Part shown: piece after piece, positions 56,591 through 61,628 of the stretch | Numbering within the stretch: the first letter of the stretch is position 1 | How the letters are laid out: every line of letters begins with the position of its first letter | NCBI RefSeq assembly: GCF_009720675.1 | Contig: NZ_WNJO01000002.1 | Location: forward strand, 248,001 to 312,000 | Source of the DNA: Secundilactobacillus folii | GTDB taxonomy: Bacteria; Bacillota; Bacilli; Lactobacillales; Lactobacillaceae | Reading direction: 5' to 3' | Length of the DNA stretch: 64,000 bases | Notes under the pieces: model-generated | Database searches by the model: none | What the model was told of the DNA's origin: nothing | The model's input: only the letters and a program-made list of their open reading frames with translations | Program-made: the position numbers and the translations under genes

Positions 56591-56620
56591 TTGACAAGCA
56601 CATATCAAAGCGGGTATATT
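56591..56620 (+). promoter_or_regulatory. Promoter of the cysteine operon
   Basis: TTGACA (56591-56596), 18 bases, TATATT (56615-56620), about 20 bases before the ribosome binding site of the leader peptide. Confidence 0.75.
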
Positions 56621-56653
56621 AGCATCAAGTTAAAAAACGAAGGAGGATCAACA

Positions 56654-56734
56654 ATGACAACCCAATCAATTAAGTCGATCATGTTAAACACTTGTTGTCG
56701 AACATCGCGTGCACTACGATGTTCGGCCTGTTAA
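56654..56734 (+). CDS. Cysteine-rich leader peptide (26 residues)
   Basis: ATG 56654 is seven bases after AGGAGG and the frame closes with TAA at 56732. The peptide starts MTTQSIKSIMLNTCC and ends LRCSAC, with four Cys codons (residues 14, 15, 23 and 26), all TGT. Right after the TGT-TGT pair lies a perfect nine-pair hairpin (56699-56725) that also covers codon 23. The region 200-330 bases downstream leads to cysK. Strong translation signals on such a short, Cys-loaded frame are what a ribosome-mediated attenuator needs. Confidence 0.7.
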   Translation: MTTQSIKSIMLNTCCRTSRALRCSAC

Positions 56735-56845
56735 ACATTGACTTTTGAAGGGTAATTGTTGATTTAACCTAAAAGTCGCTGTTCCAGGCGGAACGGAGAC
56801 AAAGGGCGCGCAAATTCTGAAATAGGAATTTGGCGCCCTTTTTTT
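56699..56845 (+). promoter_or_regulatory. Attenuator hairpins of the cysteine operon
   Basis: Visible elements in order are: CGAACATCG/CGATGTTCG (56699-56725); GACTTTT/AAAAGTC (56740-56777); GTTCC/GGAAC (56781-56794); and a terminator AAAGGGCGC..AAATTC with GAATTTGGCGCCCTTT plus TTTTT (56801-56845). GTTCGGCCTG (56721-56730), in the 3' arm of the first hairpin, can pair 9 of 10 with CAGGCGGAAC (56785-56794), so alternative folds exist. The terminator precedes cysK by 218 bases. Confidence 0.65.
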
Positions 56846-57062
56846 GTTAAATACATGGGGCAAAATAACTAAGCGACTGCATGTTGAGAATTCTCACAAT
56901 GTGACAGCTACTGAATTCGGCAAATTACATGGATGTAAACACGAATCAACACGTGTTCATTCAGCAAACTGCATTTTTAAACAGCATGCACTACCTCACA
57001 TCCCCGCAGATCGCAATTATCCCGACCAAGAACCTCACAATTCATGGAAAGGATCACTGAAG

Positions 57063-57989
57063 ATGTTAATCAAATCAATTCAAGAACTTATTGGCCACAC
57101 GCCGTTGATCGAACTGCAGATGCCAGTTCCTAACAATTCCCATATTTACGCTAAGTTGGAGATGTTTAATCCCGGCGGCAGCATCAAAGACCGCCTCGGT
57201 CAGTATATGATTCAAGATGGCATTGATAAGGGTAAAATCAACGCCACCACGACCATCATCGAGCCAACCGCTGGTAATACTGGCATTGGTGTGGCGCTGG
57301 CAACGCAAGCACATCATTTACCAACCATTCTCGTGGTGCCGGAGAAATTCAGTCGGGAAAAACAAACCCTCATGAAGGCGTTGGGTGCAACCCTGATCAA
57401 TACGCCTTCTGCGGATGGTATCAAGGGCGCAATTAAGAAGGCTCGTGAGTTGGCAGACCAGACACCTAACAGCTATGTGCCGATGCAGTTTGAAAACCCC
57501 GCTAACCCCGCTACTTATTACCACACCTTAGCGCCAGAACTGATTGAAGATCTTGATCAGCCAATCGACGCATTTGTTGCTGGAGCCGGTTCCGGTGGTA
57601 CTTTTGCCGGCATTGCCAAGTACCTTAAGGAGCAAAATTCCCATACTCAAGCGATCGTTGTTGAACCAGAAGGCTCGATCTTAAATGGCGGTCCTGCTCA
57701 TCCACACAAAACGGAAGGTATCGGAGTGGAATTCACTCCGCCATTCTTCAAGGACGTTCAAATTGATCAGACGCTGACCATTTCGGATGCGGATGCTTTC
57801 AAGTACGTGCGCCAAGCAGCGGCTAAACAGGGCTTGTTCATCGGCAGCTCTTCCGGTGCGGCATTAGCGGCCAGCCTAAAAGTCGCTGAACAGCTTCCGG
57901 CGAACAGTACCATCGTAACGGTATTCCCAGATAGTTCCGAACGTTACATGAGTGAAAATATTTATGCAGAACCTACAACTGAAAACTAA
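57063..57989 (+). CDS. cysK: Cysteine synthase / cystathionine beta-synthase-like enzyme
   Basis: A 308-residue PLP enzyme of the CysK/CBS family: [16 protein letters not shown] (PLP Lys near 42), [21 protein letters not shown] (phosphate loop) and [10 protein letters not shown]. It makes cysteine from O-acetylserine and sulfide, or cystathionine from homocysteine and serine; in lactobacilli this cluster has been linked to both. ATG 57063 follows GGAAAGGA by nine bases. The upstream in-frame open region (from 56844) has no such site. It forms an operon with ctl and cysE. Confidence 0.93.
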
Positions 57990-58008
57990 ATGAAAGAGGT
58001 AAATGATT

Positions 58009-59196
58009 ATGAAATTTGAAACTAAACTTTTACACGGCGGCATTAGCGAAGATCCATACACGGGCGCAACCTCGATCCCGATTTACAACGCTTCAACTTT
58101 CCACCAGACTAAAATCGGTGAAGCAAAGTACGAGTACTCCCGTTCCGGCAATCCAACCCGGGAAGCGGTGGAAGCACTGATTGCCGATCTTGAGGGTGGC
58201 ACAGATGGCTTTGCTTTTGCTTCCGGTTCCGCTGCCATTGATACCGTCTTCTCAATGTTCAGTGCGGGAGACCACTTTATTGTTGGTAACGATGTTTATG
58301 GTGGGACTTTCCGACTGATTAACACCGTTTTGAAACGCTTCGGGATGACCTTTACAGTCGTCGACACGAGGGACTTAGCCGCCGTTGAAGCTGCCATTAC
58401 GCCTGCCACGAAAGCCATCTATCTCGAAACACCGACCAACCCACTATTACGGGTAACTGATATTCAAGCGGTGGCAAATGTGGCTCAGGAACACGGCCTG
58501 CTCAGTATCATTGATAACACTTTCAGTTCGCCGTATGTCCAACGGCCACTAGAACTGGGTGTTGATATCGTACTTCATTCCGCATCGAAGTACCTGGGGG
58601 GCCATTCCGATGTGATTGGCGGTGTTGTCGTCACGAAGGACAAAGAACTGGGAGACAAGATTGGGTATTTGCAAAATGCAATTGGTGGGATCCTCGCTCC
58701 ACAGGAATCGTGGCTGTTACAACGTGGTATGAAGACGTTAGCCATTCGAATGGAAGCTCATCTGCACAACGCCCAAACAGTCTTCAATTACCTCTCTGAC
58801 CAGCCGACAGTGGCTAAAATTTACTATCCAGGTGACCCGGAGAACCCCGACTACGAAGTGGCAAAAAAGCAGATGCACCATGGTTTCGGTGCAATGATCT
58901 CCTTCGAGTTGCAGCCCGGTCTTGATCCTAAAAAGTTTGTTGAAAATTTGCAGGTTATCACTCTGGCGGAGAGTCTCGGCGCTTTGGAATCGTTGATTGA
59001 GATTCCAGCTTTAATGACCCACGGCTCAATTCCACGAGAAATTCGTTTGAAAAATGGTATCAAGGACGAATTGATCCGTCTATCCGTTGGCATTGAAGAC
59101 GAAAAGGACCTGTTGGCCGATTTAGACCGCGGTTTCATGGCAGTACAAGGGAGCGAAAGTCATGCTGGAAACAGCCAGAGCCATCCTCAAGCGTGA
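58009..59196 (+). CDS. ctl: Cystathionine gamma-lyase/synthase-type enzyme
   Basis: A 395-residue Cys/Met-metabolism PLP enzyme: ETKLLHGG, IPIYNASTFHQ, YEYSRSGNPTREAVE, FASGSAAIDTVFS, VYGGTFRL, ETPTNPLL, PLP Lys in HSASKYLGGHSDVIGG, and SLGALESLIEIPA near the C-terminus. It cleaves cystathionine to cysteine (or makes it, or acts on methionine). The ATG at 58009 is better spaced from GAGG than the one at 58003. It overlaps cysE by 35 bases. Confidence 0.93.
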   Translation: MKFETKLLHGGISEDPYTGATSIPIYNASTFHQTKIGEAKYEYSRSGNPTREAVEALIADLEGGTDGFAFASGSAAIDTVFSMFSAGDHFIVGNDVYGGTFRLINTVLKRFGMTFTVVDTRDLAAVEAAITPATKAIYLETPTNPLLRVTDIQAVANVAQEHGLLSIIDNTFSSPYVQRPLELGVDIVLHSASKYLGGHSDVIGGVVVTKDKELGDKIGYLQNAIGGILAPQESWLLQRGMKTLAIRMEAHLHNAQTVFNYLSDQPTVAKIYYPGDPENPDYEVAKKQMHHGFGAMISFELQPGLDPKKFVENLQVITLAESLGALESLIEIPALMTHGSIPREIRLKNGIKDELIRLSVGIEDEKDLLADLDRGFMAVQGSESHAGNSQSHPQA

Positions 59197-59755
59197 TCCG
59201 GCTGCGCATAGTCTACTCGAAGTGATCCTGACCTATCCGGGTGTCCGCGCGCTATTCTGGTATCGTATTGCACACTATTTAGAGGAACGTCACCACTATC
59301 TGATGGCCCATATACTGAGCCAGCATGCGACTAAAGTGACGGGTATCGCCATTGATCCAGGTGCTCAAATCGGGCGACGGGTCTTCATTGATCATGGACT
59401 AGGGGTTGTGATCGGCGCTACGGCGGTCGTTGGCGACGATGTGACGATTTTGCATGGTGTCACACTTGGTGCTCGTGGTGGTGAAGCAAATGGCCGTCGT
59501 CACCCAGTTGTCGAACAGGGTGCTTTCATTGGCGCAAACGCCCAGTTGTTGGGTGCAATTACGATTGGTATGGGGGCCAAAATAGGTGCCGGGGCAATCG
59601 TGCTGCAAAATGTGCCGGCCTACTGGACAGCTGTCGGTAATCCAGCCCGGTTAATTCGTAAAAATGTGAAGGTAACGCCACTTAATTTAAGGAGCGTAAA
59701 TTCAAAAACAAGCGAGAAACGGAAGACTGACAAAGCTAAAACGGAATATGATTAG
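59162..59755 (+). CDS. cysE: Serine O-acetyltransferase
   Basis: A 197-residue left-handed beta-helix acetyltransferase: RDPAAHSLLEVILTYPGVRALFWYRIAHYLE, IDPGAQIGRRVFIDHGLGVVIGATAVVGDDVTILHGVTLG with hexapeptide repeats, and the catalytic His regions FIDHG and RRHPVVEQG. It makes O-acetylserine for CysK. The ATG is inside the end of ctl behind GGGAGCG, so translation is coupled. A Lys-rich tail of about 35 residues follows the usual end of the fold. Confidence 0.94.
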   Translation: MLETARAILKRDPAAHSLLEVILTYPGVRALFWYRIAHYLEERHHYLMAHILSQHATKVTGIAIDPGAQIGRRVFIDHGLGVVIGATAVVGDDVTILHGVTLGARGGEANGRRHPVVEQGAFIGANAQLLGAITIGMGAKIGAGAIVLQNVPAYWTAVGNPARLIRKNVKVTPLNLRSVNSKTSEKRKTDKAKTEYD

Positions 59756-59808: not shown

Positions 59809-60153
59809 TTGACACCTTATTGAAGCTGCTTGATAATTACAGTTAATCATTATAAAAACCAAATACAATTAATAGACGTGAGATTAGTAAGTCTAACTGC
59901 ATTTGCACAGAGAATCACGGGTTGGTGGAACGTGACCGAATACGAGACTGAAGAAACTCAGAATAAAGTCGTATCACCGGGCTTTTTGAGCTGGGTGACA
60001 TCGGGTACGCCCGTTATTGCGTACGGTTATAGACTAGGTTAGTTCTATAACTAAAGCGTCATGGTAGCTGTGATTTGGACAGTGCCATGGAAGAAAGGTG
60101 GTACCGCGTGAAATCGTCCTTTTATTCAAATCTTGGATAGAGGACGATTTTTG
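59809..60153 (+). promoter_or_regulatory. T-box leader (apparent AAA/Lys specifier) of a D-2-hydroxyacid dehydrogenase gene
   Basis: Promoter TTGACA-17-GATAAT at 59809-59837. The leader has the AGTA turn, upper stem AGTCT/AGACT, distal hairpin TCACG...CGTGA with loop GGTTGGTGGAA, and TGAAG-AAA immediately before CTCA, which pairs with TGAG. This places AAA at 59954-59956. The motif AAGGTGGTACCGCG is near 60096-60109, and the terminator (AATCGTCC...GGACGATTTTT) ends at 60153. The leader is certain; the codon is less so. Confidence 0.88.
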
Positions 60154-61284: not shown

Positions 61285-61628
61285 TTGACAACGTCGAGTA
61301 TCTGTTTTAATATAATTTTAATCTTTAGCTCATTAAATATTAATTTAAATATAATGACAATGATGGGAAGAGTAATCTTGTTAGTATTCGTACAGAAAGC
61401 CTTTAATTGCTGAGATAAGGCATTTGAACGCAAGATGAAGATGAACCCAGAGTAAGGGTGACGGTCATTTTGGCTGTTACTTCGCAAGGATGCGTTATCG
61501 TCCCCAGCTTGAACACGAGCTGTTGAGGTCTAATGGAAAGTGTCGAAAAATTTCCGTTGGGTAAAATAGGGTGGTACCACGTTGAATGCGTCCCTTATCT
61601 ACAATTTCTGTAGGTAAGGGATTTTTTT
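61285..61628 (+). promoter_or_regulatory. T-box leader (Met specifier) of an amino acid ABC transporter operon
   Basis: TTGACA (61285-61290), 17 bases, TAATAT. The upper stem TCTTG/CAAGA and distal hairpin GCCTT...AAGGC are present, and TGAAG-ATG occurs 19 bases after the distal hairpin exactly as in the metNIQ leader, giving ATG at 61441-61443. The motif AGGGTGGTACCAC is at 61568-61580, and the terminator CCCTTA..CTACA/TGTAG..TAAGGG with T7 ends at 61628. Confidence 0.9.

Follow-up and report, generated by a model that had tools for sequence, protein, structure and literature searches.

The cysK-ctl-cysE operon of Secundilactobacillus folii is preceded by a leader that is very probably a cysteine-specific, ribosome-mediated transcription attenuator. 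Comparison with relatives indicates that its short Cys-rich frame, the run of Cys codons, a first hairpin, an intrinsic terminator and a covarying antiterminator helix are conserved. A preliminary description of the window, that is, the whole 64,000-nucleotide stretch of DNA analysed, had proposed an undescribed cysteine leader-peptide attenuator ahead of these genes, and this core claim is supported: relatives keep the frame, the paired Cys codons and the hairpins. The promoter, AGGAGG, the 26-codon frame, the Cys-Cys pair, hairpin 1 and the terminator that it had named were all recovered by sequence inspection, scans and folding. The features of the leader and the genes downstream are as follows.

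56591..56620, + strand: promoter-like site of the sigma-70 type, TTGACA-18-TATATT (11 of 12 matches)
56641..56646, + strand: AGGAGG, putative Shine-Dalgarno site for the leader frame (from the sequence)
56654..56734, + strand: leader peptide frame MTTQSIKSIMLNTCCRTSRALRCSAC, 26 codons, from the ATG at 56654 to a TAA stop codon
56693..56698, + strand: Cys codons 14-15 (TGT TGT), putative stall site (a Cys run is present in all 102 frames found by rule)
56699..56725, + strand: hairpin 1, putative anti-antiterminator, with arms 56699-56707 and 56717-56725 (folding; compensatory changes)
56707..56715, + strand: candidate antiterminator strand A, GCGTGCaCT (comparison of relatives)
56720..56730, + strand: 5′ side of an inner helix, the alternative pairing of the preliminary description (predicted stalled-state fold of the window sequence)
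56785..56795, + strand: 3′ side of the same inner helix (predicted stalled-state fold of the window sequence)
56775..56800, + strand: predicted hairpin directly 5′ of the terminator in the fold without a ribosome (folding)
56801..56845, + strand: intrinsic terminator, hairpin 56801-56841 and T tract 56839-56845 (folding)
56804..56811, + strand: candidate antiterminator strand B, GGGCGCGC, within the 5′ arm of the terminator (comparison of relatives)
57063..57989, + strand: cysK, cysteine synthase family (PALP; best NCBIfam match TIGR01139 with 324 bits, below its cut-off of 351)
58003..59196, + strand: ctl/metB-like Cys/Met PLP enzyme (Cys_Met_Meta_PP; best NCBIfam matches below their cut-offs)
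59162..59755, + strand: cysE, serine O-acetyltransferase of the EpsC type (NF041874, 204 bits, cut-off 150)

The Cys codons of the leader frame are at positions 14, 15, 23 and 26, and each is TGT. Hairpin 1 is a perfect 9-bp helix (−10.6 kcal/mol) that begins at the base after the Cys-Cys pair. The terminator hairpin (56801-56841) has a folding energy of −24.6 kcal/mol; a simple terminator scan missed this element (56801-56845) because its stem contains one unpaired G, and folding revealed it. The leader as a whole folds with z = −7.8, and none of 200 shuffles was equally stable. The TTGACA-18-TATATT site is among the two best of 13 promoter-like sites in the 6.5 kb scanned, a total that is not above that of shuffled sequence (11.6). 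A second promoter between 56845 and 57063, which the preliminary description had regarded as evidence against attenuation, was looked for on the + strand, and no promoter-like site with at least 9 of 12 matches was found, a threshold that leaves weaker sites possible. The 220 bases between the terminator and cysK (56844-57063), for which no function was seen, exceed those of most listed relatives in length and can be read without a stop, in the frame of cysK, from a TTG at 56844.

The leader DNA of the window matches 37 of 397 Lactobacillaceae genomes (its own genome counted); many of these matches cover just the Cys pair and hairpin 1, and some cover other short stretches. A search with CysK (E <= 1e-100) gave 105 places in 104 of the 397 genomes, again with the genome of the window counted. 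Up to 650 bases were taken 5′ of each place and examined with a fixed rule for a leader frame, namely a ribosome site, 20-60 codons and adjacent Cys codons. A Cys-rich frame was found by this rule ahead of 102 of the 105 places; the reverse strand gave 3 of 105, and shuffled regions 2 of 105. The three exceptions are two genomes (G029 and G065) in which the frame MVSCCCGSRLERFVVSCCPENCCL is visible by eye without a clear ribosome site, and one (G329) in which the region ends at a contig end and totals 173 bases. All 102 frames hold a run of two or three Cys codons (207 TGT, 63 TGC), and the interchange of the two triplets indicates that the amino acid, and not the codon letters, is kept. A hairpin with a T tract follows 3′ of the frame in all 102 leaders (−9.9 to −27.8 kcal/mol). 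The search of relatives suggested in the preliminary description thus yielded both the frames with paired Cys codons (102 of 105) and hairpins with compensatory changes. Judged by sequence, the frame, Cys pair, hairpin 1 and terminator of the window are one member of a strongly conserved, putative cysteine attenuator.

The same arrangement extends to other families of the order. CysK was found at E <= 1e-80 in 55 of 295 genomes of the order, and in these other families the frame is present by rule ahead of 41 of 47 cysK places (reverse strand, 1 of 47) and by eye ahead of one more, G630, which has a GGGGGA ribosome site. The other five places without a frame by rule are G486, G425 and G412, where none was seen by eye either, and G596 (second gene) and G533, both of which are distant paralogs, 46% identical. 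Among 80 named cysK loci, the rule found a frame in 31 of 31 from Lactobacillales (partly the same genomes) and in 3 of 49 others, the latter being near chance. The nearest named relatives, S. silagei, S. silagincola, S. angelensis and S. hailunensis, have cysK proteins of 89-91% identity. No match was obtained in a phage collection searched with the leader core. The view in the preliminary description that the leader marks a local change of mechanism is therefore not sustained: among genomes with this cysK, the leader is the norm within the family and widespread within the order.

A ligand-binding riboswitch or a T-box, to which the small frame would be incidental, is very unlikely to account for this leader, highly structured though it is and despite the T-boxes that precede neighbouring genes. 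Rfam searches gave no match at the gathering score, either at the leader of the window or at those of 11 other loci of various origins and of 20 of the 47 regions from other families. The T-box family (RF00230) gives no match at the window's leader at the gathering score or at E up to 10. The frame with its Cys run is kept in 102 of 105 places by rule while TGT and TGC interchange, which argues against an incidental frame. The known leader-peptide models of NCBIfam (six) and Pfam (three) also gave no match at the leader.

The element that competes with the terminator was missed in the preliminary description and emerged from the comparison of relatives. It is a helix between the loop of hairpin 1, together with the start of its 3′ side, and the 5′ arm of the terminator (56707-56715 with 56804-56811). 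In the window, the predicted pairs join 56707-56712 and 56714-56715 to 56804-56811, and in the window's own fold the final two pairs of strand B move by one base (56803-56804). For the analysis of covariation, leader segments and terminator flanks were aligned separately, with pairing ignored, which left 91 distinct pairs of the 102. Of 408 nine-column antidiagonals, the top 12 by fraction paired and the top 12 by covariation all lie on a single antidiagonal. Thirteen columns of this diagonal, picked after the ranking, hold standard pairs in 81% of cells, with 148 cells in which both sides have changed; after a shift of the diagonal by 1-3, the values are 34-54% standard pairs and 23-67 doubly changed cells. 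When partners were permuted, 70.2% of the cells were paired (sd 0.9, largest value 72.8 in 1000), as against 81% with the leader's own partner. With one sequence per genus (15 genera), the values were 80.5% and 71.4%, respectively, and none of 2000 permutations reached 80.5%. Examples of such pairs are GCGTCTTAT with ATAAGACGC, GCATCTTAT with ATAAGGTGC, and GTGTCAATTGC with GTAATTGACAC.

The predicted duplex energies show the same preference for the leader's own partner. Ninety distinct leaders of the 102 were counted, and the frame of G090 and the ends of the Cys runs of CCSC peptides were corrected by hand ahead of the duplex and antidiagonal analyses. The mean energy of the A-B duplex was −17.5 kcal/mol for own partners and −12.1 kcal/mol for partners from other genera. 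Own duplexes beat shuffled partners by 2 sd in 69 of 90 cases, but beat 95% of foreign partners in only 47 of 90; in genera g6 and g14, foreign terminator arms often pair equally well (30-77% of foreign partners, several rows). Outside Lactobacillaceae, the margin of 2 sd over shuffles was reached by 22 of 41 duplexes, those of f3 (Enterococcaceae-like) being often weak. Two families outside Lactobacillaceae have a wholly different sequence in an unchanged layout, with the pairs TCTCATGC with GCATGAGGA and ACTCATG with CATGAGT; the sequence of f2 and f7 is of the GCATGAG type.

Consensus folds were calculated for 34 of 35 sequences of one clade, a near-duplicate (L127) being omitted. The consensus of the full leaders consists of hairpin 1 plus the terminator, and 14 of its 23 pairs show one or more double changes; in alignment A2, one pair of hairpin 1 is GC in 24 sequences and AU in 10. 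The consensus of the RNA ahead of a stalled ribosome has five antiterminator pairs, one of them with double changes. The predicted antiterminator shares bases with both hairpin 1 and the terminator and would be mutually exclusive with each, as is expected of an attenuator.

The preliminary description had assigned the antiterminator role to another helix, 56721-56730 with 56785-56794. The complementarity in 9 of 10 positions on which it was based is present by eye, and the helix is predicted as an inner helix when the window is folded in the stalled state. Since none of its bases lie in the terminator, it cannot alone cause read-through; it is also absent from the consensus of the 34 related leaders, and it was set aside as the decisive antiterminator.

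The covariation also bears on a rival reading of the palindrome GGGCGCG...CGCGCCC, as the DNA operator of a cysteine-gene regulator and not as a terminator arm. The palindrome was listed as potentially regulatory in lactobacilli by Liu et al. 2012 (cited in PMC6004538, in its passages on this region), but its 5′ half covaries with strand A ~90 nt upstream, a T tract lies 3′ of it and a leader frame lies 5′ of it, and f2 and f7 keep the layout with a wholly different sequence (GCATGAG type). We consider an operator to be no better than a slim prospect. Slimmer still is the prospect that the frame encodes a functional Cys-rich microprotein, with the terminator serving only to end its transcript. 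One clade does keep a C-terminal RCSAC, and in E. faecalis the frame carries the annotation of a hypothetical protein; beyond the Cys run, however, the peptides of different clades share little, the conserved nucleotides extend past the stop codon in one clade, and covariation with the terminator would be left unexplained. Rho-dependent or translational control through the same leader can be given hardly any weight here: conserved terminators are lacking in the actinobacterial cys leader peptides described in the relevant part of PMC1262725, but a hairpin and T tract follow all 102 leaders, and it is the 5′ arm of that hairpin with which the covarying helix is formed.

For the attenuator, the following mechanism is proposed. 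With ample Cys-tRNA, the ribosome would move past codons 14-15 and complete the frame; hairpin 1 (56699-56725) would then form and keep strand A in its loop, the terminator (56801-56845) would form and transcription would end 5′ of cysK. When Cys-tRNA is scarce, the ribosome would stall at codons 14-15 and cover the 5′ arm of hairpin 1 (to ~56705-56708). Strand A (56707-56715), left free, could then pair with strand B (56804-56811) once B is transcribed; the terminator would not form and cysK-ctl-cysE would be transcribed. The kinetic order would suit such a switch, as hairpin 1 is transcribed well ahead of strand B, which in turn appears well ahead of the terminator's 3′ arm. We infer translation of the frame, stalling, read-through, the dependence on Cys-tRNA and the kinetic folding. 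In 94 of 102 leaders, the pairing of hairpin 1 in the local fold begins at the middle base of the last Cys codon. The sequence features that define a ribosome-mediated transcription attenuator, namely the frame, the regulated genes, the terminator and a candidate antiterminator, are all found in this leader.

Folding in the presence of a ribosome was modelled on the RNA ahead of the stalled ribosome up to the apex of the terminator, with an assumed footprint of 13 nt and with every pair between leader and terminator flank taken into the expected-pair count. At least five such pairs are expected in 102 of 102 Lactobacillaceae leaders stalled at the first Cys codon, in 101 of 102 stalled at the last, and in 40 of 41 leaders of other families. 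Without a ribosome, the same number is expected in 52 of 102 and 11 of 41, respectively, and the stalled count exceeds the free count by at least four pairs in 63 of 102 and 36 of 41. In the window, 12.9 pairs are expected with the ribosome at codon 14, 11.0 at codon 15 and 0.0 without a ribosome. The antiterminator is predicted to win over hairpin 1 at equilibrium with a ribosome anywhere on codons 1-15; the expected pairs drop to 5.4 at codon 16 and to ~0 at the stop codon. When the stalled RNA of the window is folded at full length, the minimum-energy structure is the terminator. The comparison of folds with and without a ribosome at codons 14-15, which the preliminary description had put forward, therefore agreed with it in part: the antiterminator is favored in the stalled state, but the equilibrium separation of the two states is not clean. 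Since the equilibrium model has no clean off state and the terminator is more stable even in stalled RNA, the switch would have to be kinetic. Footprint folding is compatible with stall-driven read-through, and leaves the off state to kinetics.

The genes downstream of the leaders make or import the regulated amino acid, both at cysK-ctl-cysE and at second copies of the leader. Fourteen further loci were examined; a leader was found by rule in 13 and none in L297, and that of L299 is a cysK leader. In genus g6, the second leader precedes a metB/ctl-like gene, with an ABC transporter next in line (L286, L287, L288, L290, L294 and L295); another frame lies between in L289, and L296 has an apparently degraded gene. 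The second copy in L295 reads Cys-Cys-Ser. In g37, it precedes a cystine-type ABC transporter (L291, L292) or a pair of MetA-like and cysK genes (L293), in g4 a metB-like gene (L298), and in g22 OppA-like proteins (two in L218; L219, L220). In g19, it precedes a metB-like gene and has Cys-Phe-Cys instead of a Cys run (L221, L222), possibly a weakened or altered sensor. Gene families were scanned for L286, L291, L293, L218 and L220, and the others were named by similar first residues; since the best hits lie below the curated cut-offs (except for cysK of L293), 'cystine-type', 'metB-like' and 'OppA-like' are best-hit names. On the minus strand of L218 (G319), two Cys leaders lie ~2.2 kb apart, each 5′ of an OppA-like peptide-binding protein, which suggests cysteine-controlled peptide uptake.

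The neighbouring T-boxes mentioned in the preliminary description are indeed present, both downstream of cysE. One (59864-60124) precedes a D-lactate dehydrogenase-like gene and the other (61351-61598) an ABC transporter of the cystine type, a name taken from best hits below their cut-offs. The T-box at 61351 may be methionine-specific, with an AUG seen by eye in the specifier loop.

A plasmid-borne operon of Lacticaseibacillus paracasei provides a link to published expression data. According to the passages on this operon in PMC6004538, cysK2-ctl1-cysE2 of strain FAM18149 is expressed at a higher level in cysteine- than in methionine-deficient medium (log2 2.9 for cysE2), and its 5′UTR is over-represented in RNA-seq, coverage that RNase III fragmentation may have inflated. 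The same passages report that no T-box was found there, note a terminator motif, AAGGGCGCGAAA-N16-TTTCGCGCCCTT, and describe the control mechanism as "yet to be discovered" (PMC6004538). This 5′UTR is the same locus and element as described here; the authors' account of it covers a terminator and a response to cysteine, with no leader frame or antiterminator in those passages (PMC6004538). Plasmid pFAM18149.25 carries the leader MSQSMFNAINCCCRTTRFWRCSAC and exactly the published terminator motif, starting 118 bases 5′ of cysK. The attenuator offers a testable mechanism for this published open question, the cysteine repression of the L. paracasei methionine-to-cysteine operon, a trait tied to cheese flavour and growth in milk.

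A CysK match was obtained in 37 plasmid records and the leader core in 32, all from Lacticaseibacillus; the 32 Lacticaseibacillus records with cysK and the 32 with the leader core are the same accessions. Two of the other five were inspected: that of E. faecalis has its own leader, and in that of Priestia no leader was seen. The gene cluster cysK-ctl-cysE is known to be mobile, as stated in the part of PMC6200037 that concerns it. In the E. faecalis record (L227:2274-2411), the frame, which contains CCC and lies 5′ of cysK and a cystathionine gamma-synthase gene, is annotated as a 45-residue 'hypothetical protein', WP_002355203.1 (MTKKQASPFLETESCCCM...). It is in all likelihood a Cys leader peptide, and annotation may therefore hold more leader peptides as proteins, which suggests what some annotated 'hypothetical proteins' are.

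In attenuators of the trp/his type, the control codons lie just 5′ of a 1:2 hairpin, with 2:3 as the antiterminator and 3:4 as the terminator. In contrast, the element described here would be cysteine-specific, and its strands A and B are ~90 nt apart with variable hairpins between them. Polycysteine leaderless ORFs of mycobacteria are also reportedly cysteine-responsive, to go by the title of a 2020 study by Canestrari.

Among described motifs, the leader resembles by description uORFC-8-2, found ahead of cysS in Rhodobacterales, for which the relevant section of PMC8632094 gives tandem Cys codons, usually at positions 14-15, two stems, a U run and a proposed attenuation. That motif differs in belonging to Alphaproteobacteria and to a cysteinyl-tRNA synthetase gene, in having its Cys codons inside the first stem, and in that the section describes no antiterminator (PMC8632094). 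Cys-run peptides also precede cys operons or cbs in Mycobacterium, Propionibacterium and Bifidobacterium, but their Cys codons are near the stop codon, and conserved terminator hairpins are absent in Mycobacterium, according to the pages on these leaders (PMC1262725). The His leader peptides ahead of hisS/hisZ in bacilli are a further case in Firmicutes of leader-peptide attenuation replacing a T-box, although for histidine (PMC2965389, section on these leaders). As the same section of that 2010 terminator survey has it, leader-peptide systems outside Proteobacteria and Actinobacteria, the erm type apart, were unknown before its own histidine case (PMC2965389). A literature search, mostly of open papers, showed no Cys leader attenuator in Lactobacillales among the matches listed. 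Ribosome-mediated transcription attenuation is thus a known kind of control, whereas the cysteine case in Lactobacillales is, as far as we have seen, new and unusually widely conserved. On balance, we favor the view that cysteine supply in Lactobacillales with this cysK is under the standing control of a single homologous family of Cys-leader attenuators. Such a family would govern synthesis and, in certain genera, the uptake of cystine or peptides, would travel with the mobile cysK-ctl-cysE cassette on plasmids, and would hold the place of the T-boxes or protein regulators of other Firmicutes. The distribution indicates that leader-peptide attenuation is the rule at the cysK locus in a large family of food and gut bacteria, and the element provides a compact candidate for a cysteine-responsive switch.

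Two minor features of related leaders were observed. Five Secundilactobacillus genomes (L113-L117, the same genomes as L003-L007; L032-L035 also match) share a long inverted repeat with the core GGGAAAAATCCCGG...TGGATTTATCCC in the gap between terminator and cysK, and a search for this repeat in the window and its genome gave no match. In one clade, the stretch GCATTGA just 3′ of the leader stop codon is nearly invariant (alignment A1, columns 31-35); this stretch may form a helix with the 3′ arm of hairpin 1, in predicted pairs that hardly vary.
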